The position numbers were made by a program, and so were the translations under genes. Positions 8,051-49,102 of a stretch of 64,000 nucleotides of DNA are shown here, piece after piece. This DNA is from Ischnura elegans (Eukaryota; Arthropoda; Insecta; Odonata; Coenagrionidae): NCBI RefSeq assembly GCF_921293095.1, contig NC_060246.1, forward strand, positions 109,658,941 through 109,722,940, in the 5' to 3' direction. The notes beneath the pieces were generated by a model, which searched no databases, was not told the origin of the DNA, and saw nothing but the letters and a program-made list of their open reading frames with translations. Position 1 is the first letter of the stretch. Every line of letters begins with the position of its first letter.

Positions 8051-8279
8051 AAAGAAGGATCTAAGGTTTTCCCGGCGAATGGACTGGAGGAAGAGTTCTC
8101 GGGTTCCCAGCCGGGTCCAAGGGTTTTTCGGCACCGACGTTTCGAGGGCGAAGTCTGCCATCGTCTTCAGGGTGAATGAAGCTGGCGTGGATGGATGGCA
8201 GACCTCGCCCTCGGAACGCCGCGGCGTTGCTGAAAAACTTGTGGACCCGGCTGGAAACCCGAGAACTCTTCCTCCAGTT
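8051..8279. mobile_element. palindromic insertion a, with hammerhead-like core
   Basis: This is an imperfect fold-back sequence. The left arm (from about 8080, CTGGAGGAAGAG...) pairs with the right arm ending at about 8279 (...CTCTTCCTCCAG). The left arm carries, on the minus strand, the core shared with four other palindromes in this window (8132-8174). The right arm has a decayed copy. The head at 8051-8083 matches about 27 of 33 bases of the head of insertion b at 8606-8638. No convincing target duplication was found; T-rich segments flanking both ends are only weakly alike. The element encodes no protein that I would defend. Confidence 0.75.
8132..8174 (-). ncRNA. hammerhead-ribozyme-like core motif (insertion a)
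   Basis: On the minus strand the order is CACC (stem I, 5' side), CTGAAGA, a stem-loop of 20 nt with GGC/GCC and flanking GA/TC pairs, GAAA, CGTC, then GGTG (stem I, 3' side). CUGANGA and GAAA are the invariant single-stranded blocks of the hammerhead ribozyme, and position 7 is free to vary. CACC and GGTG pair perfectly. Against function: only two bases (CG) separate the A that should open stem III from the U that should close it, so stem III cannot form. Self-cleavage is not claimed. Confidence 0.4.
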
Positions 8280-8359
8280 ATTTGTGTTGTGGTCTCCAGT
8301 TGCATTCAAACTCGGAGAAAGCTCGCGCCTTTTGCGTGAATGTGATAGCATTGTTTATA

Positions 8360-8490
8360 TTTTTTATGAATGTTTTATACGTTGCGGTGTGCATGTGGGG
8401 GTTCTGCTTCTGGGGGTTCATGCTGGTTTTTAGTCACCCCCGGCCCAACATCTTAGGGGCGGCTTACAGGGTGTTATGTAGAAGTACTTA
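8360..8490 (+). mobile_element. possible LINE 3' UTR relic
   Basis: The sequence GGCGGCTTACAGGGTGTTATGTAGA, preceded by a CCCGGCCCAACATCTTAGG-like block, resembles the minus-strand 3' end at 7150-7230 (CCTTTTAGGCGGCTTGAGGGATATTACGTAGA). It may be the tail of a second LINE of the same superfamily, on the plus strand and without coding sequence. Similarity is short and judged by eye. Confidence 0.35.
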
Positions 8491-8592
8491 TTCCACGCAT
8501 CCATCCAACGACACACCCCTTATCCTTAAGCCGGACTTAACATGCAGAAGGAGGGGTGGTTTTGAGAAATTCTGCTGAAGATCCCCTCGAAC

Positions 8593-8845
8593 GTCAGGGA
8601 ATCGTAAAGAATGATCGTAGGCTTTCCCGGCGTATTGAATTGTGGAAGGCTACACGGGATTTCCACCGGGTCAGGTTCTCCAACTCTATCTCGGCCGACG
8701 TTTCGATGAGCGAGTTGTCCATCGTCTTCAGGGCATGAAGACGATGGACAACTCGCTCATCGAAACGTCGCGTCGGCCGAGATGGAGTTGGAGAACCTGC
8801 CCCGGTGGAAATCCCGTGTAGTCTTCCACAAGTCAGGGAATCGTA
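8593..8845. mobile_element. palindromic insertion b with 14-bp target duplication
   Basis: The 14-bp direct repeat GTCAGGGAATCGTA lies at 8593-8606 and 8832-8845. Between them a nearly perfect palindrome folds on a loop of about 5 bases at 8733. Both arms carry the shared core: 8697-8733 on the minus strand, and 8735-8769 on the plus strand. In the core CTGAAGAC is followed by a GATG/CATC stem, then GAAACGTC. The left end begins with the same head as insertion a. Target duplications of this length and variable size are typical of target-primed retrotransposition rather than cut-and-paste DNA transposons. Confidence 0.88.
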
Positions 8846-10979
8846 TTCTCCCGAGTGAAAATGAAAGTGGTCTGTGGCTTACGTGTAATGATGTCATCTC
8901 TCTCTCGAATGTCATTTCTGGAGTGCACTGATTTACAGTATGTTGCATAAATTCCATATTGCGCCGGTCTCAAAAAAGATTTTTCATTGAAATATAAATT
9001 TATAGGAGAGAATAAAAGTGTTTCAGTGAAGCGGTCTCGAATTCGACTGACATGAAATACTTATTCGAAGTAGATGGCCCAATAGAATTGCTGTAAAAAA
9101 TTAAGTTGAAAATAATTTAGCAATGAAATCAGAGTGTTGACTATGGTGGCGACTATTGTAGACCAATTTAAGTACACGGTGTCAGCATGAGCAGTATTCG
9201 ACCGGCGAAGTATTAAATGCAATATTTGAGGCATTATTTGCGTGAGGCTGTTGCCCGAGGCTCCAAATGATGGTGTGCAGTGATGAGGAAACCTTCTGAA
9301 GAAGATGATCAAATCTAGCTTGCTTATTCTAAAAAATTAAAATTTGAAACTTTTGAGGCGTATTATCTGTTTAATTTTTTAATATTTGAGTAAGTAGGAT
9401 ATTTTGAAAACGATACACTCTAGTGCCATGAAAATTAGAAGATTCTTTCTCAACGAGTAAGACAAAATACGACCGGTCGAGAGGGTGGTTTACGTCCTCT
9501 TAACTTTACACCGAGTTTCCACCTCACGTGACTAAATGACCACGCCTATAGATGTGAAGGTTCACCCACAACATCGCGATGCAACTGAGCCTCCCGGTGC
9601 ATTTCAATGGCGGAGCATTAGCGTGTTAGATCCTCGCCCACTCAGCCTGTTTCCCTTCCGATCCAACGCCTCTCGCCATTTTGACAACCCTCTGAATACC
9701 GCGTGAGAGCTCTGATACCACTGCAAAGTCATAGATCCCCGGTCATCGTTCTGCCCCCTTGGGTCCCCTTCCAAGCGTCCGAATTTCCACCCTTTCCATC
9801 TTCCTGCACCCCCCTCTATCCCCTCCAGTCTCTTAATTTCCGCAAACGTACAATCTGCTTTCCCTACTCCATCCCATACACCCCACCCACCCTTCTCCCT
9901 TGAAAGGCCTCTCTCATGGGGAAACTATGTCCTTCCCTAAACCTCTCCGTCCACACCCCACTCATTGCAAACCCTCCACCCTCGACCACACCCTCCCTCC
10001 CTCCGCCTTAACCCGACTGTCCAGCCACAGCACCCTCATCTCTCCTTCCCCTCCATCCATCACGCGGTTTATCGCCCAGAAATCTGCTCACCTTCGCTCC
10101 GCCGATTTCTCTCTAACCCCGCCTCAAACTAGGGAGTTACCTAGAAACCCTCTCCCCTTCTCCTCAGCGAGATAATATTACCCGTTTCCATGGCCACTCA
10201 TTTGGATTACGCCCATCGCCTATTGTGCCCTCTCCTCTTCCACGAAACCATCTCCTCCTCCTATATTTCCTTTTTTTCTTGGTTTCCTTGCCCTTGGCTA
10301 ACCTTTACCGCATCGAGTGAAAACTTTTATGCACGATAAAAATCAATGGATCGTATAATTGGACGTAATCAGAAGCCAGATGGTTCGAGACTGGTATGAA
10401 ATATATTAAGGTCCATTCCTTGAGCTAGAAATTTTTCCTTTCTACCTTTTTTTCCACCAAATCCAGTCACTTGCCTGCTTGCCTGCAGGAAAAAAATTAG
10501 TTCACATCGTCTGATTCAGATATTCACGAAGAACCTTCTATTATCGTTTAGCAAGGCAATGGCTATCATTAATACGGATCAAATGATCATCTCATCAACC
10601 GATTTCATTTCTTAAATAATCTGGGATGTTTTCCCCCTTTGTCAGAATAGTTCAAACAATGCTGCTAAATCATTCGCCAAAGAGGTTTTAAATTGAATGT
10701 CTTTTCTTTTTTAGAACAGACTCACGATAGCGTTTCAAAAAACTGAGTTATTTATTAAGTAATGAAGAGGAATTTAACACATTTTATCTTTCTTGTGTTT
10801 TATAATGCATCTTCACAAAGTGATGTTTGATATTTTACCTTATGCAACTCTAACTTTGTACCCTCGCCCAGGTATAGTGTCTCAAAATACCATAGGAAAC
10901 TTCATTGACTGTGTTGATTGCATAGAACCTGATTTCATTCCTATTTGAGCTAAAAATTCACAAAGAAAAAAATAAATCG
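8846..10979. other. non-coding, with pyrimidine-rich tract
   Basis: No gene is recognised. From about 9700 to 10280 the plus strand is a C+T-rich tract (runs such as CTCCCTCCCTCCGCC). It gives long spurious open frames rich in Pro, Ser and Leu. The rest is AT-rich unique-looking sequence. Confidence 0.5.
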
Positions 10980-10982
10980 CTT

Positions 10983-11056
10983 TGACCGGGAGGCGAACTC
11001 GAATCCCGGATTTTCAGTAGAGTACTTAAGCCAGTTAAGCTATAACCGAGGCGTCA
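10983..11056 (-). repeat. tRNA-like SINE head or tRNA pseudogene
   Basis: The minus strand has TAGCTTAACTGG (plus-strand positions 11031-11042), a perfect match to the Pol III A-box consensus. About 25 bases downstream, GATTCGAGTTC (10995-11005) matches the B box at 9 of 11 positions. The sequence does not fold as a proper tRNA in the anticodon arm. A tRNA-derived SINE head is therefore more likely than a working tRNA gene. The SINE tail and target duplication were not delimited. Confidence 0.4.
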
Positions 11057-11196
11057 TTCTCTCTTGTGAAAATTTGTGGGCTATACCGCACAAGGTGGTA
11101 TGGACTGCTGAGCATATTATGCAATAAGTACTCCAAATCGTGCGCACAGCGCCACCAAACTTTGACCACATAGAGGCGGTCGCCCTTGACTAATTG

Positions 11197-11322
11197 AAGT
11201 ATACCGGGACTAGCCAGGTATCCCGGTCTAGGCGAATGATTTTTTCTCTATGGAATTTTCGCGCAATTTATGTATTGCGGTTGACGGGTAAAGTTATCAC
11301 CGTGGCTAGTCCCGGTATACTT
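11197..11322. mobile_element. tiny inverted-repeat element (MITE-like)
   Basis: AAGTATACCGGGACTAGCCA at 11197-11216 is the exact reverse complement of 11303-11322. The 86 bases between them contain no gene. A perfect 20-bp inverted repeat around a short core is the form of a very small MITE. Each arm contains TATAC, so a TA-type target duplication absorbed into the repeat is possible but cannot be proved. Confidence 0.65.
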
Positions 11323-13267
11323 AAAAAAAATTAAAAATAAATAAATTAATTAATTCCTATTTCAGTGAGTGCCGTGCATCTCAGGTAACCATTCTATCCC
11401 TGACAGCACACAACACATTACGCACAATTTTTTTCTACCGTTGCCGATATTCGTAGATTGAAAAAAAGCAACGGCAAATGGAGGGAATTCAAAGAGCCAG
11501 AGACCAAGGCACGAGAAACACTGAAAGCTCTCCTCTTTCCACGAAGAGCCAAGGATCGGGTAATGCCAAGGAACCTTATGGGATAGATTTCTGGGGGGTT
11601 GGGGTGCGACCGTCGACCCTAAACAACGCGACCGTTGCAGATAATAAAAGAAGATCGAGGGATGAACGACACTGGGATCCCAATTGAACGAATGGCGTCG
11701 TGTAAGGAGAGAGAGACAGAGAAAGGGAGATTTAATCGAGGGGCAGAAACGTGGGTGGGCTTAAAAGGAAGGAAGTTGCTGACTTCGACGCCGTGAGGGT
11801 GGAAATCGCTGAGTTAGGGCTTCTTTTTTGCCGGTGGCGTAGTATAGCATAGTTGTAACGAATACAACACTTACGCAAATATTAATTGAACTGCCTAAAG
11901 AACGCTCTATGAAATATTTAAACGGCAATTCTTTACCCCATTCCCAATTAATTCCACTATATTGATTATGTTACTTCGAGAAAACAAAAGAACATTAAAT
12001 ATACCTATATGATTGAAATTCCCAGAAATTCAATTAGATTGGCAAAAATTGCCATATGGGAGAGTGGTGGGCTAGTTAATAAGGCATGTCGCCTGTTGAC
12101 CGATTGATCCACGCAAAATTTACGGAGGGATTATAGAGAATTATTGTGCACCTCAAAGATAAACCTTCGCCTAATTCTTTGGCAAGGATCCGATACTATT
12201 AATTCTATTTATACACCTGGGACTATAAATGAGGCGAGCGCAACACTCACCTAACTAAACCAACCCTTTTTGCATCGCTAGGATTGCGGGAAACGATCTC
12301 AAATCATATACGACAAATATATTTAAATGATAGCTGGCAAAATCCAATATGCCAAATTAAAATAGTTTATGCTCAAGCAAAAAGTAGAAATAAAATATCT
12401 CATTTTCCTCATTGTACTTAACTCTGTATCAAGATGGGTTCTTTCGAAAATATCTCATATATTAAATTTAACTTGTTTAAATTTAATTGATTTTCAATGA
12501 GGATTACAATTGGAACAAGAAAAGGTTTAAATCGGATAAGCAAGCAAATAGCACATACCTCCGTGGTGTAAAACGTTTTCCAGTGCAAAAGTTTCGGCAC
12601 ACTGAATTCCTCCAATTAGCAGCTCGATTATGTAAAAAGTCTGATTTTCTGAAAACCCATGAGGATATTAAAGCCAAATAATGAGAGTTTACCCATAAAA
12701 AACTCTCCCTTGTATCGAATCTCTAGAAAGTTCTACGACTATGTACTCAAAAAGTAAATATGTGAAGAGATAACGAACTAAGTGATTGGATCGGCGATAA
12801 GGAAACAAATCGAAGCATTATTCTTCGCCAAGGAAGTCGCGAGCACACACGCTAGTTAGAGGAACTGCATAAGTAGGGATGGGGGATGTAGGAGAGGAAA
12901 GGAAGAGGGGGGATGAGGTGAATATGTCCCAAGGAGGAGGAACGGCAGAGGGAAGATTGCGCGCAGCCTCGAAGTCATTCTCAAGAGCACTCAAATATTC
13001 GCCAAAGTTTCCCTCCCAGTCTCAATTAGGGTAATGATATCCACGAGTTTCAATTAAGTATTCCGTTTCCGTATTGATAAATACGGAGAATCAGCATCCG
13101 AAAGCGTTTTCATTTTGAATTAAGCAGTTTCAAAAGATCTCTGGAGGTGGTGTGTTCTTCGTAATAAGAATTTTCCTGCTTTTCCTAAGTGTTGCCACAA
13201 TTTGCTAGTATCCGGAAATGGTACGACTTTTGTGATAGAGATTACAGATTCGCAAGAATGGGGGAAG
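11323..13267. other. non-coding, no gene recognised
   Basis: Mixed AT-rich DNA. A degenerate A-box-like string, TGGGCTAGTTAA, occurs near 12069 with a poor B box after it, which is too weak to call. A purine-rich patch lies at about 12860-12950. Confidence 0.45.
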
Positions 13268-13892
13268 AAGACCTTAGGTTGATAATGGCTTCCGGGTGCA
13301 GCTGCGTGTTGCGCTTTGTCGTGCAAGCTTTCGCGACCGTTGCAGGACGCATCATCAGGCGATGAATGAAATTACGGAAATCGGTGGTCAATTAATATAC
13401 TCGTCCACCTCCCCCATCCACCGGAGTAGTGGGGGAGGGGGGCGGAGTTGACGTCAGCAGAACTCTCACCCCTGTCCTTGAGCGACGAGCGGACTCTTCT
13501 TGTCTAGCGCATAACCTTGTTGGTAACATATTCGTCGTCTTCTCTTTCGGAAAATCGTTTTCCACGTCTGGCTGAGTTTAACGCCGTCCACTCTGTTGAA
13601 ATTTTGGGGGCATTTTTCAATTTCAATAGCCGGGAGTGCGCTCGTCGCTCAAGGACAGGGGTGAGAGTTCTGCTGACGTCAACTCCGCCCCCCTCCCCCA
13701 CTACTCCGGTGGATGGGGGAGGTGGACGAGTATATTAATTGACCACCGATTTCCGTAATTTCATTCATCGCCTGATGATACGTCCTGCAACGGTCGCGAA
13801 AGCTTGCACGACAAAGCGCAACACGCAGCTGCACCCGGAAGCCATTATCAACGATGCCCCTCGCTGCGAAAACCGACGTTCAAGACCTTAGG
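13268..13892. mobile_element. palindromic insertion c with 11-bp flanking repeat
   Basis: Two arms of about 215 bp (13279-13497 and 13634-13852) are nearly perfect inverted repeats around a unique spacer of about 137 bp. The direct repeat AAGACCTTAGG occurs at 13268-13278 and 13882-13892 and is a candidate target duplication. It leaves 29 bp at the right end outside the arms. Each arm carries the shared core with CTGATGA, a GCG.CC/GG.CGC stem and GAAA (13325-13359 minus, 13771-13805 plus). The head TTGATAATGGCTTCCGGGTG resembles the heads of insertions a and b. Open frames across it are by-products of the palindrome. Confidence 0.85.
13771..13805 (+). ncRNA. hammerhead-ribozyme-like core motif (insertion c, right arm)
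   Basis: CTGATGA is an exact match to the standard hammerhead block. It is followed by a short stem-loop (in the left-arm copy GCGTCC pairs with GGTCGC around TGCAAC, with one T-T mismatch) and then GAAAGCTT. The left-arm copy on the minus strand (13325-13359) is the same except for one changed base before the stem. Stem I can form only two G-C pairs and stem III is not evident. This is motif-level evidence only. Confidence 0.35.
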
Positions 13893-16800
13893 AATTAGTG
13901 TTCACAGTCCTGAGTTTAGAATATTTTGTGCTATATTTAATGTTCGTAATATTTTTGCGAATGGAATGATAATTATAAAATAATGAAATGATTCAACGCG
14001 AAGAATATTTATAGGGCTAAGGCACGGGCGTGTGAATTTCTCAAAAATTGGATAGATTATAGTTCCTCGCTAGTGGCCACCTCGGGTATAAAAGATGTTT
14101 ATTTGGGGATATTTGAAGGCTCGACTGGGGTTGAACCCAAGGTCCTAATGTAATATTTACATTGCATTCAATACTTTGAATAAAGAATTATAGACTTTTA
14201 AATTTTGTACCCTCTCTTAAAATATATATTAATAAAAATAAATTTATATTTAAAAAATAATTACGGTATTATTTCACTTTAAAACATTGCTGGAGATAGA
14301 TACTTAAATAGATTTTAACTGCATAATATTCAGCTGTAACAATCACGCCATGTTACAATGATTACCTCCTCTTCGAAAATCACGTAAATTTGAGGTGGCA
14401 AACTTACTTTTCAATTTTTCGAAATAACGTACTCCAAACTAATGATACAATAGGTGGAATCATATGAATCAAACCGCTGTTGATATTATGATAAGTTTTT
14501 TTTACATCAGTTTACTGTTTCGACATAAATTTCTATCTTTAGAGATTTTATCACTACGAATCCATGCTATTTTCGGAAAAAATATGCTTTCTGGTATGCT
14601 TTGCAACTTGTGTTTCCTCCGAAAATTCGTGGGGGCCAGACTCAATGGGATTGAAGCATGAAGTGGCTGGTTTCAACACGCGCTCGGAGTGCAAGCCAGT
14701 TACTATGTCAACAGAGTGATTCACACACTCACAGCCAAGCCGCGGCCTCATGACGCATTCAGTCCTTGCCTCCTGTCTAATACCTCGTAGCGACTCACGG
14801 CACATCTCATGTGTCATTCATGAGCAAGCAACCTTAGGAACGGGGGAACCCAAAGGGATCTGATCCGAGAGATGGAAAAGAAGTGTAGGTATGATTCACC
14901 TTGCTCCAACTCCCGCAATCGTCAGACCGGGAAAATGGAGATAGTGAGTACGTACAAAAATGTACAAAGAAGATGGAGGACCATAACCAGCGCTAAGTCT
15001 TTTTAATATGATTAATTGTATGCCTTAGTTTGAGAATGCCGAGTCACCAAAGCACGGCTGTTAACATATTAAAAGGAGCAAGTCTGCTGAATATCACAGG
15101 GTAAATCTTCTACTTATTACCCCGGTTTCAACAATTCACCGGAAGATGGCTAAGAAACCGACGCAACTCGATTGTTGAATGACCTTTGAGTTTTATTTCC
15201 TAACTCGGAATATACGGTAAATAACAAATTACATACTCTGAGTGAACATGAGTAACGTGAAAAGCTATCAGGAACTTTTATTTATGATAACTGTTGCTCA
15301 TACAGATTGTCCCAGACATGTCATCGAAATAGCTTCAGCTGAACACATCTCTCAGCTGAGCTCTCACGCTGTATTTAGCTTGTGATGCCACTGATGGTAT
15401 GCTAATCTATGCTCCTCAGTGATTGTTATCTATCCTAGGGTTAACATGTGTCTTATTTTTTGGTAATATACGAAATATCTATGCGTAAAAGTTCAAAGTA
15501 ATGGTGAATAATAGAATTAATAGCTTCGTCGCTCCCATTGGAGCCACTCCTGCATATTTGCATACCTAAGCCTCCCATAAATAAACACCAATTCGAAATC
15601 TCCAGCGAACTGCCGCCTTCACGCAGAGGAAATCCGACATGATCAGATTTTTCTGCGACGACGCAGCGAGCTGGCGACATCATCAATTCTCAAAGACGGG
15701 CTCTGATTGGCTCACAAGCCGCGGCGTCAACGCAACGCCTAACTTGAAGGTACCCTTACCAATAGCTTGAGTGAGCTAGTATTTTTCACCTTTGAAAATG
15801 TGTCTTGTGTACCATCAGAGATCTTCGTATCATGAAATGTATTTCCGCTTAAACGGTGTGTGACGTTCAAATTATATAATTAAAATTAGCTGCATTTCCG
15901 TTATTCTTCTCTGATATTCCATATTTTTATTGCCTTACTACCACTGACTCATCGTGTCATCTAAATTTGTATAAAATTACTTGGTAAACAAAACATGTGT
16001 GGAGAGATAAATAAGTTCACGCTGACTACTTGATTTTTGATTCTACCGTGATTTAACTATGCAGTTAAGGTTGACAAAAAGTTTCGTTCCTCCCAAACAT
16101 AGGTTTGATTGAGCTGTGTCGCTGGAGGGGGTACTCTGAAAAACGGACTTTTTCACGAGCCATTGCTTTAAGGATTTGATGATTAGAGGAAAATATATAC
16201 TGAGTTATGGTGGTGTCCAATTCCATTTGTACATGTAAATAGCACGTAATGGGGCCAGAAGTGAAGGGATATTGTCAATACCATGTACTTATTTAAGAAA
16301 AAATACACAAAGGAATTGCTTGCCATTTCTAAGGATTCTTTAGGTCGAAGAAGCAGCTCGCTACAACAAATCATTAGCTACCCGCAGAGAAAGAAAATTC
16401 ACTTAGGCAGCACTTTGTAGACCCTTGGAAAATGGTATGAAAATTACAGTTCGTCCTAAATAGGAGCTCATCTTTGGAAAAATAAAAAAACATCAGTAAA
16501 AACAAATGGGAAACTGCACGTGTTAAAGTCTACTCATTCGTCACTGTTCACAATTATATTAATTTAATCGACATGAAATATTTCTCCTCACTGAGATCCA
16601 CGGGCAGCCTGAGAGCCTACCGCTACCTCCATGACAAACAGCGCAAATTTTATGGCACTTCGTAGATGCAGGCGTGATTTTCATCACTTTAATCAAAATA
16701 CCGATGCAATGAAATGTGGGCGAAAGGTATTTACTCAAAAAGAATTCCAGCTCAAAGTCAAGGAAGCTTTTCCTGAAAATAAGTAGCCATGCACCTTAAG

Positions 16801-17409
16801 GCCAAAGACGATTACTCTCCTTCTCTCCATTACTTGAGAAATGTACAGCGGCGAAAAAAAATTATAGTGAAGCTCATTGGCGTCTGAATGCCAGCAGATT
16901 AATAACTATTTCAAAACATACTTCTTCCAAACAATTGTCTTATCAGTGTTCTCAAATAACCGGGAATTTTCTATAGCTATATACCTCTTGTACCTTGGGT
17001 ATAAATCATGTCTGTCGGAGAATGACAACTTGTTAAAGACCAACTACGAATTATTTCTCACATTCTTCGAAGTGTGAGCGCAAAACCCCTGATCTCCAAT
17101 CTGTTAAATTGGATTAATCAGATATAATTATTGCTAAAATTTGAAAGAAAGTGTAAGTTTTAGATAAATAAAAATTCCAAAAATTTTAATTCAATTTTAC
17201 AGGTAGTAAAGTTATTGGTTCAAATATTAATAGATGTGGGTATGAGGCCTACACAGCCAAATGCAAATTTTACCATGAGATTGCACGGAAAACATAGTGT
17301 GTGCAAGTGACCTGACTGGTTGAGGGATCCAGGGTTATCATTCACCGCTAATAAAAGATTAAGATTTACTTATTGATCACAATGTATAAAAAATGTAAAA
17401 GAATCCTGA
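13893..17409. other. non-coding, no gene recognised
   Basis: AT-rich DNA. GGGTTGAACCC near 14120 resembles a Pol III B box on the minus strand, without an A box. No open frame stands out on both length and composition. Confidence 0.45.
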
Positions 17410-17600
17410 AATGCATTTTTTGCATTTGCTCTTCGTCCACTTTCCATCCCTTCCCGTATTTCCCGCGATCATTTCCGCATCCATTCAACCTTTCCTTCGG
17501 ATGGATTTTTCTTTTTCCCCTCCTCCTTTTCCTCAGGGATTCCCTTCCTCAAATCCCCCCTCAAATCCTTTCTCCACCCCCAACGAAAAACCCATTCCTC
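17410..17600. other. pyrimidine-rich tract
   Basis: The plus strand is dominated by C and T (CTCCTCCTTTTCCTC, CCCTTCCTCAAATCCCCCC). Two overlapping open frames rich in Phe, Pro and Ser arise from the composition alone and are not called genes. Confidence 0.6.
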
Positions 17601-17639
17601 GGCAATGTTTCTATTCTTTACATATCACGTATCCGTAAC

Positions 17640-17830
17640 CGACGCCTCGCCGCCACCCCAAATGCTATTCCCCGCTTAGTGCTCTTCATTTTTCATTTGC
17701 ATACAGCATGCATTTATCATGGCGTTAACACCATCCGCCACGATTTGATGGAACGAATTTCTGAAGGAACGCGGTTATGGGAGGGGGGACGGAAGGAGGC
17801 ATGCGGAGGGAAGAGCGGGTAAAGAGGGGT
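17640..17830 (+). repeat. diverged local duplication, copy 1 (partner near 19.12 kb)
   Basis: Matching landmarks in the same order: AAATGCTATTCCCCGCTTAGTGCTC here against GAATGCTTTTGCCCGCTTGTTGCTC; GCATTTATCATGGCGTT against GCATTTATCATGGAGTT; then AATTTCTG and a G-rich segment. The copies are about 1480 bp apart in direct orientation. The function is unknown. Confidence 0.6.
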
Positions 17831-32508: not shown

Positions 32509-32536
32509 ATCTGGCTTATTTTCTGGCTTATTTTCC

Positions 32537-37189: not shown

Positions 37190-37276
37190 GCCCCCACATT
37201 TCCCATCACACACCGTAAAAGACAACCTCTGCGAAAGAAAATGTTGATACCCACTTGTGGTAGTATCCTCTCTTTT
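37190..37276 (+). repeat. diverged local duplication, copy 2, next to insertion d
   Basis: Second copy of the 36590-36700 segment. It runs directly into AGTATCCTCTCTTTT, the left copy of the 15-bp repeat that flanks insertion d. Confidence 0.6.
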
Positions 37277-37647
37277 TTTTCGTATGAAGATTTTCACAGC
37301 TTCTTTTATCAATGCTGGTGGTGGTTCTCGGGTATTGCTATGTAGGTAACATTTTCACTCAACGTTTCACTCCTCCTACTGGGAGCGTTATCAAGGGAAT
37401 CAAACGCTCTCAACGCTTCTTGATAACGCTCCCAGTAGGAGGAGTGAAACGTTGAGTGAAAATGTTACGTACACAGCAATACGCGAGAACCACCACCAAT
37501 CATAATTCTGGTGACACGCACTCACAGTTAGAGGATGATCCATACCAAACAAAAGATGATAATCAGCAAATCTTTTTCTTTGAAGAAAGTTCACTCTTAA
37601 TTGAGCAAGAAGTAACTTTAATTGAAAATGAAAGTATCCTCTCTTTT
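37262..37647. mobile_element. palindromic insertion d with 15-bp flanking repeat
   Basis: Two 79-bp arms (37317-37395 and 37419-37497) are nearly perfect inverted repeats around a 23-base loop. Each arm has the shared core: CTTGATAACG, a CTCC/GGAG stem, then GAAACGTTG (37360-37395 minus, 37419-37454 plus). The direct repeat AGTATCCTCTCTTTT occurs at 37262-37276 and 37633-37647. If it is the target duplication, the insert is 356 bp and extends well beyond the palindrome on both sides. The pyrimidine-rich repeat is less decisive than those of insertions b and e. Confidence 0.78.
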
Positions 37648-40600
37648 CTACTTTTGATCACTCGCACCGCGTCACCCCTTCGCCCGTCTCCTCACATTCC
37701 ACACTATCCTTTTCTTGAGCGAGTACCCTTGGATCGGAGAGAATCAAGGTACGGAAATCATTTCTAAAGACCATTGAATGAAAGATTCAGATCTGTCACT
37801 TACTTGGACAATGCTGTGTCTTATACATATCAGCATAGCTGAGCCATTAATGGAAATATGAAGTCAAATTTATGACTTGATAGACGACAAGTTGCTTCAT
37901 TGTCGCCAAAACAAAATCAATAAATTGTCGTATTGACTGGCAGATTCGAATTCGGATAAATTTCTTCGACAAAAATGCTAGTTAGAAGCTAACCAAAATA
38001 ACCGGGTGAACTCGGACCTTCGACCAAATTTAGAATTCAAGACGATAAAATTACTAAGTATAAAATACAAATATTTCCTAACAATGTAACAGACCAAGTG
38101 CATAAATCTTATCGATCATTTTTTATTTGAAATTGTTTGAAATTAGGTTCTGGCGTCTCCTTCAGGAGAGTTGGCATTCTTGATTAAACAAACACTTCTG
38201 CACGTCCGCAACTGCAAGAAAAAAAGAAGCCAATTTTGTGTTAAATAATTTTCGAGTGCCAATTTTTTTACTTAATGACATGACTGCTCCGTAAAAGCTG
38301 CCTGACTGCACACTCCGCGTATTCTGAAGTCGTCAAATTAACGGACTCATCTCCTTGAATAATTATTACGTGCCATGATTACGTATTATAATGCGCACGC
38401 CGTCCGTTTGTACCCCGGTGACGATGAAAAATATGTCTTCTACATATACCAAATGCGGACAAGTGTTTTCCGGATGAGATCGATCGGTATGTTTGCTCGT
38501 AACTTGTTGAATTTTTACAGTTTAAAAATCTCAAAATATGGAGTCTTTAATTACATTGATTATCGATAGCTAACCTGGAAATTATGTGTCCAACGCTCCC
38601 TCAAGTATTCGAAGAATAAATCATGAAGAAATAACTATTGGAATCAGTTCTTCCTTTGCTTCATAAATAAATATTAAACACAGTATTAATATAAATAATA
38701 ATCTTATTCATCTCAAGTTATACACGTCGATTTTGTCTCTTTGACAGATTGATATTATCCTGTAAATAATCAACAAATTTTAACCATTGACAATCTCTTT
38801 GCTTATTTCTTTTAATTTAAAGTAGCAATTGATTAAATCATTTACTTCAACTAGAATCAATCTCCCATCCTTTGACACAAATACACCATCTTATTTTATA
38901 ATAAATTCATAGAGCAAATTTTGTTGGAGGTAAAACCCAACTACTGAAAAATTCAGTTGCGATAAGGATTGTTTGAAAAAAAGAACAGCAGAAAATTATT
39001 GATTTAAGACTACTAAGACATTTTTAGATTTAAGATTTAAGACTAAGATATTAAGAACTCACTTCGACAATTGACATTAGTAATTTTTACAGAGTACAAA
39101 TTTTGCAGTCCCTTCAATATTAAATAAGACGTATAAACTAGATTCGCGATATAATTTTGGCAATACGAAACTTACTGCTACTTTTAAAATGATACATAAA
39201 CCAGTTCCTACGATATTACCGCTTGGACGTACGTAAGTGCTGGTGACCGCATGGGTACACATTATTAATTCACTGTGTGTAAGTATACGGCGTTATGACA
39301 TGATATTGCGTTTTATTAAAAATTTAATTGATCCTATGGTCACTTAATAATTAAAATTTCTATTCCTAAAAGTCCTTTAGAAAATCTTCCTCCACGCACC
39401 TCCGCATGGTTTTACAGGCGGACTCTAATTTCAGCATGGAAAAAGCTAATTATTGGACTTAAAAATGTTAAAGCCCGATCGTAATTATTCGCATATTATT
39501 CAGAGTAATGCTACTCGATCGGTAAACCAAAATAATAGGATATATTATGATAAATAAATGCATGAAAAAGTTGTTATTTGTATGTAAAAACATACAAAAT
39601 GAAGGAGGTTTCAGGCACAGTGCACACACGGTTCAATGCTCTTCGAGTACGCCTAAGGAAGTCCTTTTCGCAGACCCCTGCTCCACTTTGGCTCTTACTC
39701 ATCCCTCCCACCCCCAACTGCCCACCCTCCCCTACTCGATCGGCGTCCATTACTCCCCCCATTTCCCTCCATTTTCATACAGCTCTCTGTCGCCAGCATC
39801 GTTGCTCATCTGTTTCTCTCCTTGGGGCCATCGATCTCTTCGATTTCTCCTCGTTTCCCCTTGCCTTTTCCTCTCTTTTTCTCACGACGGACGTCCATTC
39901 TTTCCTCTCCCCTTCTCTTTCTCCTTTCTTATTGTCAATGGGGAACGATGGATCTTGAAATTACGACGGGATACCCGTGGCGTACAGATTTTTCCAATCT
40001 TCTTTCCTCTCTTCCTCTGATGTATTATATGTGCGCCCCTTTGCAGTTGCCTCAAGCAGCGCAACAATTTATATTGCATTGAGAGGTTATATTACATGAA
40101 TGTAGTACAATGGTGACCTTGTGATATAGAGAACTGATGAAAACAAAGATGTAATTCGACAAATGGAACTCTAGTTTAAAATTTAAGACCAAGGCATCAA
40201 AAAATTTCAGAATTTGATTCTGGGCTTATCAATTATTTTCATTACCCTCGTAGGATACAAGACGTATTCCTGATTTTTAGCATTCATTTTTTTCACTCTA
40301 TTGGTTGTTTATCTAATCATCTAACTACATAATTTGGCATTAAATATTTAATATCACAAGATGCATTCAGAGAAAGTAATCGTTACAGTCACCGCAAGTA
40401 ATTTGAAATAGAATTAAGTACAACTATTCAAACAATTAATTGATTACATGTTGCCATGGAAATGAAGGAGATTTTATTGTATTTGTTGCCATAAAATACT
40501 GCTCATGAATTTCCCAGCATATCACATTAACTTAGGTGATAACTAGAAACTTTAAAATTTTACTGATTTGGTCTAGCAACAAATGGTGAGATATACATAC

Positions 40601-42162
40601 TCTATGAATAAAACATTTTTTCCAGAATCTTCTTGTTATTTTTCTCAATTCCTGAGTACTGCGAATGATCGTAACTTTTCCAGATTCATTACCGAGAAAA
40701 ACCAACTAGAATGGTATGCATCATATTTTATCAAGGTAAATATCGGAAATATTCTAAATCTCAATTGCTGAATATCACTCATAACACGTCTATGGTCAAC
40801 ATTGAAATTATCTGTAGTTTGAAAAAATATTGAAAACTATATATATATAGATGCATGATGTGGAATAATGAACCCATCTCTGGAATTGTATGTACCTACA
40901 ATAAAAATAAGCTATGATATCTCATACAGAGGGTAGCGTTGGCTAGAAATATTTCTTCTGAACAAATATTCGTACAAAAATAAGATAACATTTCCCTTTG
41001 CTGTCCAATTACGATAAAGTTCCAGAATTTCTCTAATAATTTCATTTTTGTACCATGGTATACTTACGATTTATGATAAAATGATGGGGTAAAAACATGG
41101 TATTATTATTTATTGGGTATGCGAGATATTGAAATATACATATTTCCTCTTTATATGGCCTCCAAACTCCAAATTCTAATGAGAAATATACATAACGCTT
41201 CCGCTTAATATTCTTATTCCCTTTATTGTAAATGCCAATATAAATGCAGTCGCGGTAAAGAACTAGGGTGTGCTAAAATTTACGGTATCTTTATATTTTT
41301 TCCTGAAAGCCCCACATAAACTATGAATCGTTGAATCAGCTCCTCGTAATCAGCCTCAAACTGTGTGCCTTCTCTCGGGAAATCTTGACGTCATTCATAA
41401 CGTTAAGAATCCCACGAGGGAAAAATTTAAAACGCGTGAGGTGATTTATATGAAGAAGCTCATTTTCCTTCCAGATAACCCACTTCAATCTCCTCTCTGT
41501 ATGTTTCATTTTTCTGCCTCCACCATGGCTTGAGGTGCCCATGAATAGGGCTTGGACTGTCTGCCGCGCAAAATATTGGGAACATAAAGTTGAAGATGCT
41601 GGACCATATTGGTTTGGGGGAGCTCGGACAGAGCCTCTTCGGGTGGAGGAGCAGCTCATTTGAAGGGGAACGATTCGCTGGGGTTTTTTTCGGTCGGAGA
41701 TTTGCGCTGAATTCCCATTGGACAGTTCTCCACTCCTCTCCCACTCCTCCTGAGCCCACTACGGTAACAAAAGGTCCTTATCGGCTGCTTCTCTCTCTTT
41801 CTCTCAACCCAACCACTTCTTCCTCATCTCAAGCTCACTCCCCTCTTTCTCACTGCGACTGCTTCCACCTCAAGTCCCAGATGCATTCCCGCTCCTTCTG
41901 AAGGCGCATACTTTACCCAACCACTCACCTACTCTACCATATATTTAAACCTAAGAAGTCATTGAGCCGACACTATGCGCGGTATATGTCGATTTCCATT
42001 CCATTGCAGAAAGTTAGCAGGATTCATTTCCTACAGAAGGCTGCTCAGCTTATGATACATATCAATGGCAATTCCAAGTTCACTCATGGCAAAATTAAAA
42101 AGTCTAATCCTTGGCATATTATCATCATTTATTAGTTATTTCAAGGAGTACCTACCCCTCCT
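37648..42162. other. non-coding, AT-rich, with pyrimidine tracts
   Basis: A C+T-rich tract at 39660-39955 gives long spurious frames in two phases. Another pyrimidine-rich patch is at 41735-41900. Elsewhere the DNA is AT-rich. No gene, RNA or repeat family was recognised. Confidence 0.5.
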
Positions 42163-42221
42163 GGCTTTCGAAATTATTATTATTAGTATTCTACCGATTA
42201 AGGTAGGTTTCCATGGAGTGT

Positions 42222-45003
42222 TCAAGAAGTGATGTAGAAGCCTCCCTTTCCTTCCAGCACTGCCTTCTTCAATTCACTGTAAGGCCTAATCCCTTTCAAT
42301 CTATCTAAAAATCCTATTCTTTTCCTTCCCCTCCCACGCTTCCCTAACATTCTACCCTCTAACACCATTTTCAACATCCCCTCCCCGCTAAGCATTAACT
42401 CCATCCATACCTTCTGTCTCTTCCGTATCTCATCTAAAAGCTGCCTCTCCTCACCCGCCATGTCCAGCACTTCGTCGTTCCTTTTCCTCTCCGTCCATTT
42501 CACCCTCTTCATTCTTCTCCATACCCACATCTCGAATGCCTCCAATCTTCTCTCGTCCTTCTTCCTCAGTGTCCACGTTTCCGCACCGTAGAGAGCTACA
42601 TTCCAAATCCAACTCTTCACTAACCTTTTCTTTAAACTCTTACATAACGATCCTCTCAGGAGCTCCTTCCTGTTCATGAACGCCTCCTTTGCTAGCGCAA
42701 TTCACTTCCTGATGTCCTTGCTACTGTGTCCGTTTTTCTCTAATGTGCTGCCCAAATAGTTAAACTGCTCTACTTGTTCAAGTTTTTCCCCGCCTACTTT
42801 TATCTTGAGTCTCACATTCCTCGCTCACGATACTTTACAAAACCGCATTGCCTTACTCTTCTTGTGATTAGCCCTCATCCCATACTCCTCGCACCGCTCG
42901 TCTAACGCATCCACTAGAGCCTGTAGTCCCCGCGCTGACTGGCTAATCAGCGCCGGATCATCCGCGAGCCTTACCGATTTCAACATCATTCCACCCACTT
43001 TCACTCCAGCTTCCAACTTGTCCCACGCTTCTCTTACCATCTCCTCAGCGTATACGTTAGAAAGCAGCGGTGGTAGAGGACAGCCTTGCCTCACACCTCG
43101 GCCAATGCTTGCCCACCCAGATTCTCCGTCCGCTACCCTCACTTGCGCATCTGGGCCATATAAAGATTACGTATCAGTTGTCTATCCCTCCAATCTACAC
43201 CTATTCTCTTGAGAATATCCATTAACATAACCCAGTTCACCATATCAAACGCATTCTCAAAATCCACGAAACAGGCATGGTCATATTCTAGGTCCCTCTC
43301 CACGAGGGATCTCATTATTGCTATTGCATCACCAGTTGACTTCCCTTTTCTGAAACCAAATTGATCTTCACCCAAATACTCGTTTGCCCTCGCCTCCATT
43401 CGTCTGTTCAATATCCTCAGTACCACTTTTGCCGCATGCGATATTAGGGTGGTAGTTCTTTAATCTCCGCATTCCACAGCTTTCTTCTTTTTCGGAAGCG
43501 GAATTGAAACCGTCTTCACGAAATCCTCCGGCCAAAATCCCTCCTAATAGATTCTGCGCACTTGTTCGAAAAACCTTTTCTTACCTTCCTTCTCTAGATT
43601 CTTCAGAAGCTCACACGGGATATTGTCCAAGCCTACTGCTTTCCTAGCCTTCATATCACGAAGTGCTCTCTCAATTTCCGAATCTAATATCCCCGGCCCA
43701 AGATTATCCTCCTCCACTGCACTTTCCTCCTCTAAACTTAATCTCTCCGGCCTGTTTCTTTCGTCATACAGATCCTCCACGTATTCCTTCCATCCACTCT
43801 GTGCCTCTTCTCGCTTGGTTAGCATCCTCCCATCTTTAGCCTTAATTTTAGTCATAGCTTATCCTCTTTTGCCGCCCGATAGCTACTTCACTTTGGCGTA
43901 CAACGCGCCTACTTCTCCATCCTTCTGGAACTTTTCCATTTCCTCACACTGTCTTTTCCTCCAAGCCTCCCTTGCCCACTTAGTTTCACGTCGTAATCGA
44001 TTATTCAATTCCCTATACATTCTCTTGCCCTGCTCTGTGTCCACGTTCTTCCACTTCCTTCTCTCCTCCATTACTTTTACCATTGCCTCCGTAACCCAAG
44101 GCTTCTTTATCCTTCTACTGTCAACGTAGCCAATTGACTTTTCCACCGCATTGGCTATTCCAGTTTTAATCTTATCCCATCTTTCCTCAACAGTCTACGT
44201 AATTTCAATCTCCCGTATACTAATGTCCACTAGTTCCTGATATTTTCTCCTCATACTCCCCTTCAGCGCTTCTGCATTCCATTGTGATGAATAACTTGTT
44301 TCTCTTGCAAAATTATGCTGCTTTCTCACCTCTGTCGTTCCGAATTCCTAATCCAAATTCTCCTATTTCGTTTCCATCCCTCCCTTCCCCGACTGAAGCG
44401 TTCCAGTCCCCCATCTCTACCAGATTTTTCTTACCCGGTGTGTCTCTAATTATTTCCTCGAGCTGTTCATACACCTCATCTAATTCTTCCTCCCTATGGT
44501 TGCTAGTGGGCATGAAAACTTGGACCACCACAAGGTTGGTGGGCCGCGCCGCAATTTATACCACCAGAATCCTATCGCTTACCTGGTCTATACCTACCAC
44601 ACGCTTACCCATCTTCCCGTTTAATACTAAAGCTACCCCTCGCTGGCTTTCCTGCCCTCCACTATATATAACCCTATACCCATCACTCCAGTAGTCACCC
44701 CCATCCCTCCACCTCACCTCGCATAATCCTAAGATATCTATCCTCCCTTTATCCATTTCCCTTTTGATATTTTCTAACTTCCCCGCCCTCACCATAGTCC
44801 TTACATTCCACGTCCCTACATTTATAGCCGACTTCTTCTTCTCCATCTTCTTCGTCTTCTTTTCTTCTCTCTTCATTGATGCTGTTGCTGCTGATGAATG
44901 ATAAGTCTCTGCAAGGATTTCGCATGTTGACGACGTCGACCTCGCTGACATTATCACGTGGACTACCTTTCGTCTGGCTCCTACCCTTCGACCTATCTGG
45001 CAT
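42222..45003 (-). pseudogene. RTE-like endonuclease-reverse transcriptase, multiply broken
   Basis: This relic once encoded the LINE endonuclease and reverse transcriptase for target-primed insertion. Minus-strand pieces in order: an acidic leader; an AP-type endonuclease with GTWNVRT, the catalytic-region CEVRW and GDWNAS (44957-44313); a linker (44146-43544); RT fingers and palm with GFRKGKST, FVDFENAFD and GVRQGCPLPPLLSN (43426-42950). The palm motif is LADD where YADD is expected. Last comes a C-terminal region with YGAETWTLRKKDERRLEAFE (42677-42222). It has at least five in-frame stops (for example at 44556 and 43883) and at least two frame changes. It cannot encode a working enzyme. The complementary plus-strand frames are shadows. 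Confidence 0.9.
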
Positions 45004-45009
45004 GGGTGT

Positions 45010-45378
45010 TAGGGTGGTGCGAAAAAACTCAAGTTACAAATTGAATGTCGCTATAGCGCGGAAAAGTTGCGATACGTTTGTACAAGAAAAACAAGAAAGA
45101 ATTATTAAAATCGGACGTCATCTTCAGATCCCGCAAAGCACCTGAAAAAATGGCAAAAATGAAAAAAATTGTTTTTTTTTCATGGTAAAAAAATAAAATA
45201 AACTTTATATTTTTAACTCTATAGCAAATTCTTATTCCAAACGGCATATGTTATAATTAATAATAATAATAATAAATAGATGGTTTTAAACAGTTATATC
45301 CGATCGTGCAAGATCATTCAAAATGTATAAATTTTGCAATTAGGCCGATTTTTCAGAGTTGTGTAATAATTACTTGAG
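45010..45378 (+). repeat. left terminal inverted repeat of the nested transposon
   Basis: The outer 210 bp are very similar to the reverse complement of the right end, with blocks such as AAGTTGCGATACGTTTGTACAA shared exactly. The inner 90-370 bp section diverges, then matches again at CAGTTATATCCGATCGTGCA and CCGATTTTTCAGAG. The inner (AAT)n run at 45259-45281 has no counterpart in the right repeat. Confidence 0.9.
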
Positions 45379-45599
45379 GTAATATTTTAGTCTAAAATAC
45401 ATTTTTGATTATGCAGCTCTTCCTTTGTTAAGATATGATTTCATAATATATAAACATCCCGGAACTCGCCGCTGGTCTTACTTCGGGTTCCACCCACACC
45501 CTTCCCTCAATCCAACCAATGAGGGTTAGTGCTACTTACAATATTTACATTTTTTGTCCTACTTTTAACTTTCAGTTTTTGAACGCTACTTTGTACTAC

Positions 45600-47077
45600 G
45601 ATTTGGTGGTGAAGTCTGACATAATGGACCTTGATTTGAATATAGCCCTAATAAATCCATCTCTGGATCGATAACCACAAAGCTTGGGATGCCTCTGTTA
45701 CCAATTTCACTCACGGCTCCATTGCTTGCGTGTAACATGGGAAGTGTTTAATATCCCAATCTGGTTTATCGTCTGATTCAATGATGGAAGCTATTTCTTC
45801 ATTGGTAATGCTCCGAAGAAGAGTTGGAGTAGATAGTTTTACTACATTCCAGTCAATCAATTCTATATAGTCTGTTGATTTGAAGTTCATGGTAGGAGTT
45901 TCCGAGTTTTAAGTTTCCGATAGGTTTGCCTTTCGGTCTGTGGCTTTTAATACTCCTTTTAGGCCTTGCTCTCTAATGTGCTTTCTGTAATCAAAAACCA
46001 TCGCCATCAATACGTTCTCTGGGTGAGCAAAGTTAGAGCTCTGTTCAATAACCGGGAAAACTACTTTATTTTAATATTCAGTCACGTATCGAGAGGTTTC
46101 TATTGCTCTGTAGAACAACGAACAAGCATGTAAGATTTAAAACAAAAGTAACTATGTCTTTAAAATTATCTGAAGCGTTTTCGGTACTTACGTAAAGTCT
46201 GCGAACTCGATTAGCATAGGTAAGCCATCTAGCATGTGAAATTGGTTCAGGATCACGGTTTGCTAAGTCATTTGGAAAGTAACCACGTGTGTTTGCTTGT
46301 CTTATGTCAATAAGGTATCTTTGGCCCTTGCTCAAAATTTGTCCATATACTTGTAGAATTTCACATTCAATCGTTTGGAAATGCAGTATTTGGAAGATTT
46401 CCATAACCATTCAGTTTATGTCTGAATTCCCACTTAAAGATTTTGGCCACTTGTTTCACCATCTAAATACTGAAAAAGATGGCGGAAAAGTAATTAAATT
46501 AAATGAAGTAAACAAACTGCCCACTGCAGTGGACGTCCAATGTGTTCTACGATCTCTCTCATAGTGCCACCTTTCCATCCAATGTTGGTGTTCGTGCCAT
46601 CACAGCAAACTAAATCTAAGTACTTTAACGATACTCCTTGATCAGAGAAATGAGATAATATGTAGGCCAAATGTCTTTAGCAGACCCGGAGCTTGGAGAA
46701 ACATGACTTACATACACAGAGGACGGTTCTTTTATCAGAGAATGGTGTTCCTCTTTAACTGTCCAACGGTACTCCTTCGATTCAATCATCTCTATTACTA
46801 GGGAATCGTCTATCCTTCCGTCAAAGTAAAACCCGTGTAGTTCACCTAAATCAAGGTGGATTTGCTGTAAATCGCTTATAGTATTTCTCCTTTCCCTTCT
46901 AATTTCACATCAGTCACTAAACTTAGAAGTATCTCCTTCAGTTATATCGCCAATGTCTTCAAATGCACTTGATGCTATAACAGCATCTGCACGGTCACAA
47001 TCACAATGCAAAGCTGTAGTTTGTAATTTTACCCTCATTTGCCGTGCTGACAAATTTTTCTTGGATATACTAGACAT
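45600..47077 (-). pseudogene. decayed transposase-like gene of an unplaced family
   Basis: Reading the minus strand across frames gives an ordered set of conserved-looking motifs: ALHCD...AFEDIGDIT, HGFYFDGRID, EEHHSLI, SHVSPSSGS, VCCDGTNTNIGWKGG, HIGRPLQW and CLLH, RHLFQYLDGETSGQN, then an open 110-codon stretch (46410-46078) with DLANRDPEPISHARWLT and RLYVSTEN, and finally FPCYTQAMEP and KLVTEAS near 45740-45700. I recall this motif series from uncharacterised arthropod and cnidarian proteins, but I cannot name the family with certainty. Its place between the inverted repeats makes it the transposon's own gene. Several stops and frame changes make it non-functional. Confidence 0.7.
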
Positions 47078-47274
47078 TTAATCTTCAAAGTCATCAAATT
47101 GCTTCTTGATTGTTAAATTTTGCGTGGCGTCATTTAAAACCTCAACATCTTCACTCTCGATTTCAACAGGGTTAACATGCTGCCTTTCTAAAGTGCAATT
47201 TTGCCTTTCAAGTCTAGCAGTCAGCTATATTGCCTCTTTTTCATCTACTGGGCGAACTAAAACTTCACTAAAAT

Positions 47275-47644
47275 TTGCCTTAAGTTATTATTACACAGCT
47301 CTGAAAAATCGGCTAATGTGGAATATTTATACATTTTTAATGATCTTGCACGATCGGATATAACTGTTTAAAGCCATGTATATGTATATATTAATAATAG
47401 CCTATACTATTTGTAATCATTTTTAGCTAAAGTGTTAAAAAATATAAAGTTTATTTTATTTTTTTACCACGAAAAAAAACAATTTTTTTTTCATTTTTGT
47501 CATTTTTTCAGGTGCTTTGCGGGGTCGGAAGATGACGTCCGATTTTAATAATTCTTTTTTTGTTTTCCTTGTACAAACGTATCGCAACTTTTCCGCACTA
47601 TAGCGACACTGAGTTTGTAACTTGAGTTTTTTCACACCACCCTA
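47275..47644 (-). repeat. right terminal inverted repeat of the nested transposon
   Basis: Reverse complement of the left repeat at 45010-45378, with scattered substitutions and small indels that indicate an old insertion. It ends in CACCACCCTA at the target duplication. Confidence 0.9.
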
Positions 47645-47767
47645 ATGGGTGGCCCTACCGGGAATAATTTAGAATTAATCCCGCCAGTGCAGCTCTAGGG
47701 GTCATAGGAACGCGCAAGCCTTTCCACCGCGACAAGGTTTTAGCCGAAGGTGAAGGGCTTTCGAAAT

Positions 47768-48673
47768 ATGGTTTATAATTTCAATACGTATAGGGACTTA
47801 ATCATCAATCTATTCAGTAAAACTCCAAGATATAGCTGTAGTTTAATATGCATTTGTAACCCGTGTTTCTTCTATGATTCAGCACCCCAAGTGCGAATAT
47901 ATACGTGGAGATCTCTTATACTAGCCAGATTGAATGGTGCAAAACACGAGGTGCATTGGCCAATAATTTATTAAGAAGCAATTTAAATAGTATTTTCCCC
48001 TAGATCCGAATTTTTCGCATCCTTTTACAAGTTGGTAGCCGATCATATTGTGACGTAGAACTCCTTCAACTGATCCCTTTGAGTTGGGTATAGCAACCAA
48101 TATTCCACCAGTTCGAGTTCAGGGGTTCAAAATTCCAAAAATCAAATGAACCCACTCCGATAAGCTCCTTTTACCATTTTCCTTCCTCTCAAATTCCACC
48201 GTTTCTTCATTCCACTCCCGCTCCCCTGCCCCCACCGCCTTCCACCGTCTCCCTTGGAAATGTCATGGCAGCAATTGAAGTATTTTTAGGGAACAATGGT
48301 GTGCACTCCTCAATAGAGGGGATTGGAAAAATTGTTTTTTTTTGCGAGAATTGGCTTTGTGAACCCAACTCCGACTGCCTCCTCTTCCTATTTTCCTTCA
48401 TCTCTTTCTCCAATTTCTCAGTAGTCAAAATTAGCCTCAATACAAATGATACCTCTAGGTAAACCATTGTCCCTGTCTCCATGACCAATTGTGGGGAGAT
48501 GGGTTGAACATTTTAAATCCAACTTCACTTCGTTATTATTCTTCTTTTCCTCTTCCCCTCTCTCAATGTTCTTCCTCAAGTTCTCTCTCCTCCTCTTCCA
48601 TCTCCCATCCTCCTCTCCCTTTCTCTCGCAATCGATTCATTCGCTCTATCCCTTCTATTGTTGGCTCGTAGTC
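47768..48673. other. non-coding, no gene recognised
   Basis: AT-rich with a C+T-rich segment at 48180-48250 and 48530-48630. Open frames are compositional. Confidence 0.45.
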
Positions 48674-49102
48674 TTCCGTGGTATTTATTAGTTAAAACTT
48701 TCGCGGATACTCGTCATGTTGGATAAAAACTTTTGGGCTTTGTCGCCGCGTCAAATTTTGGGTGGCCCCAACGTTTCCCACCGATGCAGGTCGCTTTCTC
48801 AAGGGATTCTGGAGAGTGGGAATTTTAATTCATATGTATATATAAAGGTATCCGTCTCAGGAGATTGGGGAGGGGAGCGGGAGGTTATAGTAATCAGCAA
48901 AACAATCAACAACCTACTACTCCAACCTCCCGCTCCTCTCTCCCCACCACCCGGGACGGATACCTATATATTTGAATTTAAATTCCCACCTCGTCAGATT
49001 CCCTTGAGAAAACGACCAGTATCGGTCGGGAAACGTTGGGGCCACCCAAAAATTGACGCTGCGACATAGTCCAAAAGTTTTTATTCGGCATTCCGTGGTA
49101 TT
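48674..49102. mobile_element. palindromic insertion e with 12-bp target duplication
   Basis: The direct repeat TTCCGTGGTATT lies at 48674-48685 and 49091-49102. Between them two arms of about 170 bp (48719-48890 and 48915-49090) pair almost throughout. Each arm carries the shared core: CTTGAGAAA, a CGACC/GGTCG stem with a 6-base loop, then GGAAACGTTGG (48767-48805 minus, 49001-49040 plus). In the left arm one stem pair is disrupted (GGTGG for GGTCG). The left end after the duplication (AAACTTTCGCGGATACTC) is a loose match to the heads of insertions a, b and d. Confidence 0.88.

Follow-up and report, generated by a model that had tools for sequence, protein, structure and literature searches.

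Within a 64,000-nucleotide (nt) stretch of the Ischnura elegans genome (contig NC_060246.1, positions 109,658,941 to 109,722,940, forward strand; hereafter, the window), five fold-back insertions, designated a to e, have arms that are mostly unrelated in sequence and yet carry the same short structured core. This raises the questions of which kind of element unites them and how such palindromes are made. We found that the palindromes are inverted insertions of pseudo-long terminal repeats (pLTRs) of Penelope-like elements (PLEs) and that the core is a predicted minimal hammerhead ribozyme of the PLE type, whereas a first-pass annotation, made from the letters alone, had known of no named element class for them. 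As to their origin, they are very probably single-event insertions of PLEs and of short non-autonomous relatives, in which both cut DNA ends primed on PLE RNA.

All five fold-back insertions were recovered where the first-pass annotation had placed them. The inverted arms measure 57 nt with 88% identity in a, 65 nt (94%) plus 35 nt (100%) in b, 219 nt (99%) in c, 80 nt (96%) in d, and 64 nt (89%) plus 73 nt (73%) in e. Exact direct repeats of 14, 11, 15 and 12 bp flank b, c, d and e, respectively, while the best flanking repeat of the window copy of a is 7 bp long with one mismatch, so that none is convincing there. The parts of the five insertions are as follows, the tail being the stretch by which one arm of each extends farther out than the other.

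8051–8279, unstranded: palindrome a; left arm with tail at about 8049–8176, antisense; right arm without tail at about 8194–8282, decayed
8128–8176, minus strand: hammerhead-type core of the a left arm, C3-G8 pair
8593–8606, plus strand: target-site duplication of b, left copy (14 bp, exact)
8607–8831, unstranded: palindrome b, with a tail on the left arm only, by inspection
8689–8737, minus strand: hammerhead-type core of the b left arm
8729–8777, plus strand: hammerhead-type core of the b right arm, decayed, position 3 being A
8832–8845, plus strand: target-site duplication of b, right copy
13268–13278, plus strand: target-site duplication of c, left copy (11 bp, exact)
13278–13631, minus strand: c arm without tail, 354 nt, antisense; matches the pLTR and start region of a PLE bearing an open reading frame (ORF)
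13317–13364, minus strand: hammerhead-type core of the c left arm, overlapping the presumptive start of the PLE ORF
13634–13883, plus strand: c arm with tail, 250 nt, sense; the tail is the final 31 nt
13766–13813, plus strand: hammerhead-type core of the c right arm
13882–13892, plus strand: target-site duplication of c, right copy
37262–37276, plus strand: target-site duplication of d, left copy (15 bp, exact)
37277–37405, minus strand: d arm with tail
37353–37400, minus strand: hammerhead-type core of the d left arm, U3-A8
37414–37461, plus strand: hammerhead-type core of the d right arm, U3-A8
37419–37498, plus strand: d arm without tail
37499–37632, plus strand: additional sequence of roughly 130 nt lying within the d duplication; among the remaining scored d copies, matches are confined to positions 7–249 of the query
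37633–37647, plus strand: target-site duplication of d, right copy
48674–48685, plus strand: target-site duplication of e, left copy (12 bp, exact)
48686–48886, minus strand: e arm with tail
48762–48808, minus strand: hammerhead-type core of the e left arm, U3-A8, stem II broken
48924–49084, plus strand: e arm without tail
48998–49045, plus strand: hammerhead-type core of the e right arm, U3-A8
49091–49102, plus strand: target-site duplication of e, right copy

In the extra stretch of d (37499–37632), one frame is open from end to end and continues into the target duplication; it is possibly a captured RNA or an atypical end.

The core had been claimed for every arm, in a fixed orientation to the loop. 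This held for nine of the ten arms, the tenth, the right arm of a, being decayed (GGAACGCC). Of four MAFFT alignments, A2 and A3 were used for the models and A1 and A4 were discarded, as c was misplaced in them. In the nine aligned arms C2.1, UGA (4-6), A9, GAA, A15.1, U16.1 and G1.1 are invariant, and the 4-mer 3' of GAA is self-complementary in 9/9 arms; it reads ACGU, and AGCU in c, which explains the variant that had been flagged in that palindrome. At least two pairs of stem I adjoin the core in eight of the nine arms, stem II forms a run of at least three pairs in seven (it is broken in c right and e left), and the pair between positions 3 and 8 is intact in eight. Helix-III-less hammerhead ribozymes with this layout are described in PLEs (PMC7761336, PMC6155905). 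The core is thus predicted to be a PLE-type minimal hammerhead ribozyme with helix III shrunk to the self-complementary 4-mer, from which we infer ribozyme activity.

Positions 3 and 8 covary among the arms: a, b-left and c pair C with G, d and e pair U with A, and b-right has A-G. Accordingly, the CUGANGA core motif is present in a, b-left and c, with A3 in b-right and both U3 and A8 in d and e. Counting the window arms, 21 of 22 arms of family d (11 loci) keep the form UUGAUAA, and 10 of 11 in family e keep UUGANAA. The single change C3/A8 stays at background level genome-wide (802 matches versus 947 for the reversed control). Judging from the d and e copies and from this background count, U3-A8 appears to be a kept double change of the hammerhead core.

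A covariance model built from the nine arms recovered these nine in the window at 42.9 to 52.6 bits and nothing else above 12.7 bits, so that the two single-arm relics announced, with no coordinates, by the first-pass annotation were not confirmed. The strict core descriptor matched the window four times, whereas 200 order-2 Markov sequences had 0.085 matches on average and 2 at most. A held-out model built from c, d and e only performed weakly, with b-left as the top non-training place (17.4 bits, E 0.019), a-left at 9.3 bits (E 3.5) and b-right absent at E≤5. The canonical descriptor, lacking an extra nucleotide before stem II, had zero matches, and it was through this result that the extra nucleotide was recognised; canonical hammerheads are not known to have one after A9.

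The genome measures 1.72 Gb. In it, the exact core pattern occurs 6,806 times versus 259 times for the reversed pattern (26-fold), which is far above background frequency and bears out the large and diverse family supposed from the window. The 100 core places listed are the first on C1, span 28 Mb and do not represent a random draw; among them there are 69 distinct strings. Stem II of at least three pairs (G-U allowed) with exactly one extra nucleotide after A9 can be formed in 70 of these 100 places and in 41 of the 69 distinct strings, as compared with 15.8% when the string halves are re-dealt, while stem II without the extra nucleotide is found in 1/100. Adjacent cores lying at most 5 kb apart form 17 pairs where 1.7 would be expected, and 14 of these pairs are head-to-head, none tail-to-tail and three in the same direction. 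Since 69 distinct strings are represented, the head-to-head layout is not peculiar to the five insertions of the window.

Some further observations concern the core. Another hammerhead-type match (L008:2596-2644, 31.4 bits) flanks a copy of a at a distance of about 0.9 kb, and a core-like CTGATAA...GAAACGT string is repeated three times on one strand with a spacing of 152 nt, as a small tandem array (G000:C1:99355243-99355578). In families a and d, the arms of the copies found across the genome start no more than about 10 nt upstream of the core. This would fit a template RNA beginning at that place, although the choice of query may favour such copies.

The core could instead be an RNA- or protein-binding hairpin that resembles a hammerhead without being a working ribozyme. 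The Rfam scan returned no family over threshold and no hammerhead among 33 matches at E≤10, the matches on the palindromes being microRNA-like only at both thresholds; the extra nucleotide before stem II and the broken stem II of two arms point the same way. Moreover, ribozyme mutations in PAc, a PLE of Anolis carolinensis, were without effect on insertion in vitro, and no cleavage occurred without protein, according to PMC11167929. On the other hand, the invariant columns are those of the hammerhead core, the stem III 4-mer and the 3-8 pair are preserved in 9/9 and 8/9 arms, the single change C3/A8 is no commoner than background, and the core sits over the ORF start, as described for PAc. We therefore regard a mere binding hairpin as unlikely, though it deserves some weight.

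The link between palindromes and PLEs came from family c, for which 40 of 1,152 candidates were scored, yielding 29 genomic places of which 27 were examined. Nineteen of the 27 loci are two-armed, i.e. composed of two stretches of one PLE, one antisense and one sense, whose 5' truncation points differ; their 5' ends are joined and their 3' ends face outward. Most are two long inverted arms rather than short palindromes, and the window's c lies near the short end of the range, its arms measuring 352 and 217 nt when put on a common scale, with others reaching 2.7 and 3.7 kb (L071 and L078). One arm of L078 spans two tandem units; therefore, tandem RNA served as the template there. L079 and L081, both two-armed, contain a further internal piece, L087 contains a 22-nt filler, and L062 and L063 run past the sequence stretch examined.

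The unit of family c leads into an open stretch of 838 aa with an RVT_1 domain (Pfam, E 2.5e-12). It has 1,665 relatives at E≤0.001, and among the 120 listed there is a protein of Anolis carolinensis with 48% identity; solved structures gave no close relative (best E 0.0081). The presumptive start codons of the ORF lie inside the ribozyme core (CTG ATG ATG CGT in the window's c and in L071). The inner start site of reverse transcription (RT) in c lies 47 nt beyond the predicted ribozyme cut, and the start sites are 78 and about 109–113 nt from the first ATG. All c arms above about 90 nt contain the core, since RT would start just downstream of the predicted ribozyme. Features of PLEs, namely variable-length target duplications, a tail and pLTR-like units (families c, a, e and d), are present, and membership of a, b, d and e is suggested by their shared layout, the link to the ORF coming from c. 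A retrozyme, whose units are bounded by ribozyme cut sites, was rejected as a candidate, since the c arms extend beyond the predicted cut. Across the 19 two-armed c loci, no arm out of 38 ends within 7 nt of it, which is in line with the report that ribozyme cleavage of PAc is not needed for insertion in vitro (PMC11167929); the ribozyme need not act in insertion.

A direct repeat of 11–17 bp (counting the overlap with arm ends) encloses both arms in 19/19 two-armed c loci. This bears on the idea of two successive insertions, the second PLE copy having landed in the first. PLEs landing in PLE DNA are indeed described (PMC3846280, PMC11167929), but a single target duplication around both arms is not what two events would leave, and such a sequence of events does not explain the one tail per pair, the common source and the direct junction. 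We consider it extremely improbable.

A regular feature of these insertions is their tail. In every two-armed insertion examined, an inner site terminates one arm while its partner extends about 30–38 nt farther out, and exactly one tailed arm was found in 74/74 distinct insertions of five families: 19/19 two-armed loci in c, 40/40 copies (38 distinct) in a, 11/11 loci in d, 5/5 loci in e and the single window copy of b. For family a, 40 of 1,438 candidates were scored, and two were dropped from the distinct set because their target duplication is also that of a third copy; 20 copies have the tail on the left and 20 on the right. If each arm chose its start site freely, at most half of the insertions would be one-tailed. 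The tail makes up 31 of the 625 nt of the c query. Direct repeats are also common in family a, being exact over at least 8 bp in 25 of the 40 copies and at least 11 bp long with one mismatch in seven more.

The tail also argues against self-priming, in which a single cDNA would snap back and template the second arm; for the Adineta vaga Penelope, an antisense RNA was proposed in this role (PMC3846280). This would account for the head-to-head orientation and the palindromic junctions, and the six of 19 c loci with the tail on the longer arm are, by themselves, compatible with it. In the other 13, however, the tail is on the shorter arm and absent from the longer one, so that the shorter arm was not copied from the longer; in two of these 13 the arms differ by merely 11 nt. 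Furthermore, each arm ends at an RT start site, and the whole lies within a direct target duplication. Self-priming thus seems improbable to us, though somewhat less so than successive insertions.

The c arm lengths within a locus are uncorrelated (rho -0.02) and the truncation points vary from locus to locus. Within c loci the arms diverge by 0.60% versus 1.26% for shuffled partners, and none of 10,000 shuffles was as close (16 of 18 pairs were long enough for this comparison); the corresponding values in a are 6.1% versus 8.3% (38 pairs), again with 0/10,000 shuffles as close. Of the 41 within-locus differences in c, 35 are private, and the remaining six fall at three sites, two of them CpG. 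The two cDNAs of a locus therefore trace to a single RNA, or else to several RNAs sharing a source. The junction fillers of a differ among most copies; among 20 that were typed, two are plainly arm-derived (12/12 and 16/17 nt), six more were equalled by 0.7–4.3% of shuffles and twelve are unremarkable.

These data also speak against the possibility that the five are unrelated families of miniature inverted-repeat transposable elements (MITEs). Short inverted-repeat elements in many copies would suit a MITE-like DNA transposon or fold-back element, whose transposase copies the palindrome as a unit. Against this, the direct repeats range from 8 to 17 bp instead of having a fixed length, junctions and arm lengths vary among most copies, and family c continues into a PLE ORF. 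In addition, divergence in family a is 7.8% between tailed arms, 9.0% between untailed arms and 8.4% between the two kinds, i.e. tailed and untailed arms form no separate lineages. Given the varying truncation points and the lack of arm lineages in a, each copy was newly made from two cDNAs, and the palindrome itself is not the replicating element. A MITE-like origin is accordingly about as hard to credit as successive insertions.

We propose the following course for the insertions. The PLE reverse transcriptase/endonuclease would cut both target strands at positions offset by about 13 nt, and each of the two 3' ends would prime RT on PLE RNA from one source, one primer beginning at the inner site and the other at the outer site, about 31–35 nt further, giving rise to the tail. 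Both cDNAs would extend toward the RNA 5' end, stop independently and be joined 5' end to 5' end through end joining. The product would be a head-to-head pair within a target duplication, and a palindrome if both arms are short. Orientation, duplications, truncation and single source would all be due to this two-ended target-primed RT. For the Ischnura PLEs we infer the cutting and priming of both strands as well as the end joining; cutting and priming have been demonstrated in vitro for another PLE, since the PAc protein cleaves and extends both strands (PMC11167929).

The one-tail rule comes in addition to two-ended priming and would call for one RNA with each site used once, or for an asymmetrically built complex. 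PAc has two internal RT start sites, the interval between them being the tail, and start-site use is alike on both strands (PMC11167929); this equal use does not by itself predict the rule. A tentative reading, which we hold to be somewhat less than an even chance, is that two primers act on a single RNA during PLE insertion, with each of the adjacent start sites used once, hence the lack of tail-tail and untailed-untailed products. That the tailed cDNA is always made first was not supported, the single-armed c loci comprising two tailed and two untailed ones. In the full-text literature, in which subscription journals are mostly outside coverage, neither the one-tail rule nor two-ended priming was found stated for PLEs.

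Several points weigh against this account of two-ended priming. Four of the 27 c loci have one arm only, flanked by a target duplication (L088 and L090 tailed, L054 and L058 untailed), so two-ended priming is not obligatory. No direct repeat was found where it was sought in two c loci (L057 and L059), and 8/40 copies of a, including that of the window, fall short of both repeat thresholds used for that family (8 bp exact, 11 bp with one mismatch). Untailed-only copies could be under-sampled in a and d, as the query was tailed, and gene conversion between arms could be another cause of their likeness. Finally, a GIY-YIG domain was not recognised by Pfam in the c ORF; by eye there is a stretch that may be GIY-YIG-like, and among the listed relatives of the ORF three are named or typed GIY-YIG (P0074, P0076, P0078).

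The closest known system is PAc (Poseidon), which likewise has a single RT ORF whose start coincides with the hammerhead core (PMC11167929), a pair of internal RT start sites (its AC-rich stem loop lies 111–118 into the ORF versus 78 and about 109–113 nt here) and a tandem template RNA, as in L078; the Anolis carolinensis relative of the c ORF at 48% fits this likeness. From cleavage and extension of both strands, section 3 of that report does not derive head-to-head insertions or the one-tail rule, which emerge here from 74 genomic insertions. The Penelope of Adineta vaga shares inverted head-to-head pLTRs, target duplications and palindromic junctions, but its 31-bp tail is optional on one pLTR, whereas exactly one arm is tailed in all two-armed insertions examined here, and the self-priming on an antisense template proposed for it is at odds with the tail asymmetry in Ischnura (PMC3846280). 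The small PLE hammerheads have a reduced helix III, and their motif lies in PLE pLTRs and is dispersed in animal genomes (PMC7761336, PMC6155905); such variants are reportedly the subject of Lunse et al. 2017 and Cervera and de la Pena 2014. The Ischnura core appears to differ from them in U3-A8 for C3-G8 in d and e and in the extra nucleotide before stem II. In the twin priming of LINE-1, a long interspersed nuclear element (LINE), the second primer lands internally and yields an inversion; the Ischnura insertions resemble its products in having two primed cDNAs of one RNA and an inverted junction, and differ in that both primers use neighbouring RNA start sites.

The window holds other features as well. 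An inverted repeat of 111 nt with 91% identity (58695–58805 and 59611–59721, 805 nt between the arms), in which the nine-arm core model had no match, is perhaps a DNA transposon. By eye, open stretches at 42222–45008 resemble a LINE-type endonuclease and reverse transcriptase, and long open stretches at 51173–53284 a hAT-type transposase.

PLE insertion is described as poorly known (PMC11167929), and the origin of the inverted structures of PLEs has so far been left open. Tail asymmetry, independent truncation and shared source jointly separate two-ended priming from self-priming, and families d and e offer what appears to be a natural double change in the hammerhead core, from C3-G8 to U3-A8. 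With thousands of motifs in this genome, many of them young and with intact target duplications, PLE insertion becomes a countable problem.

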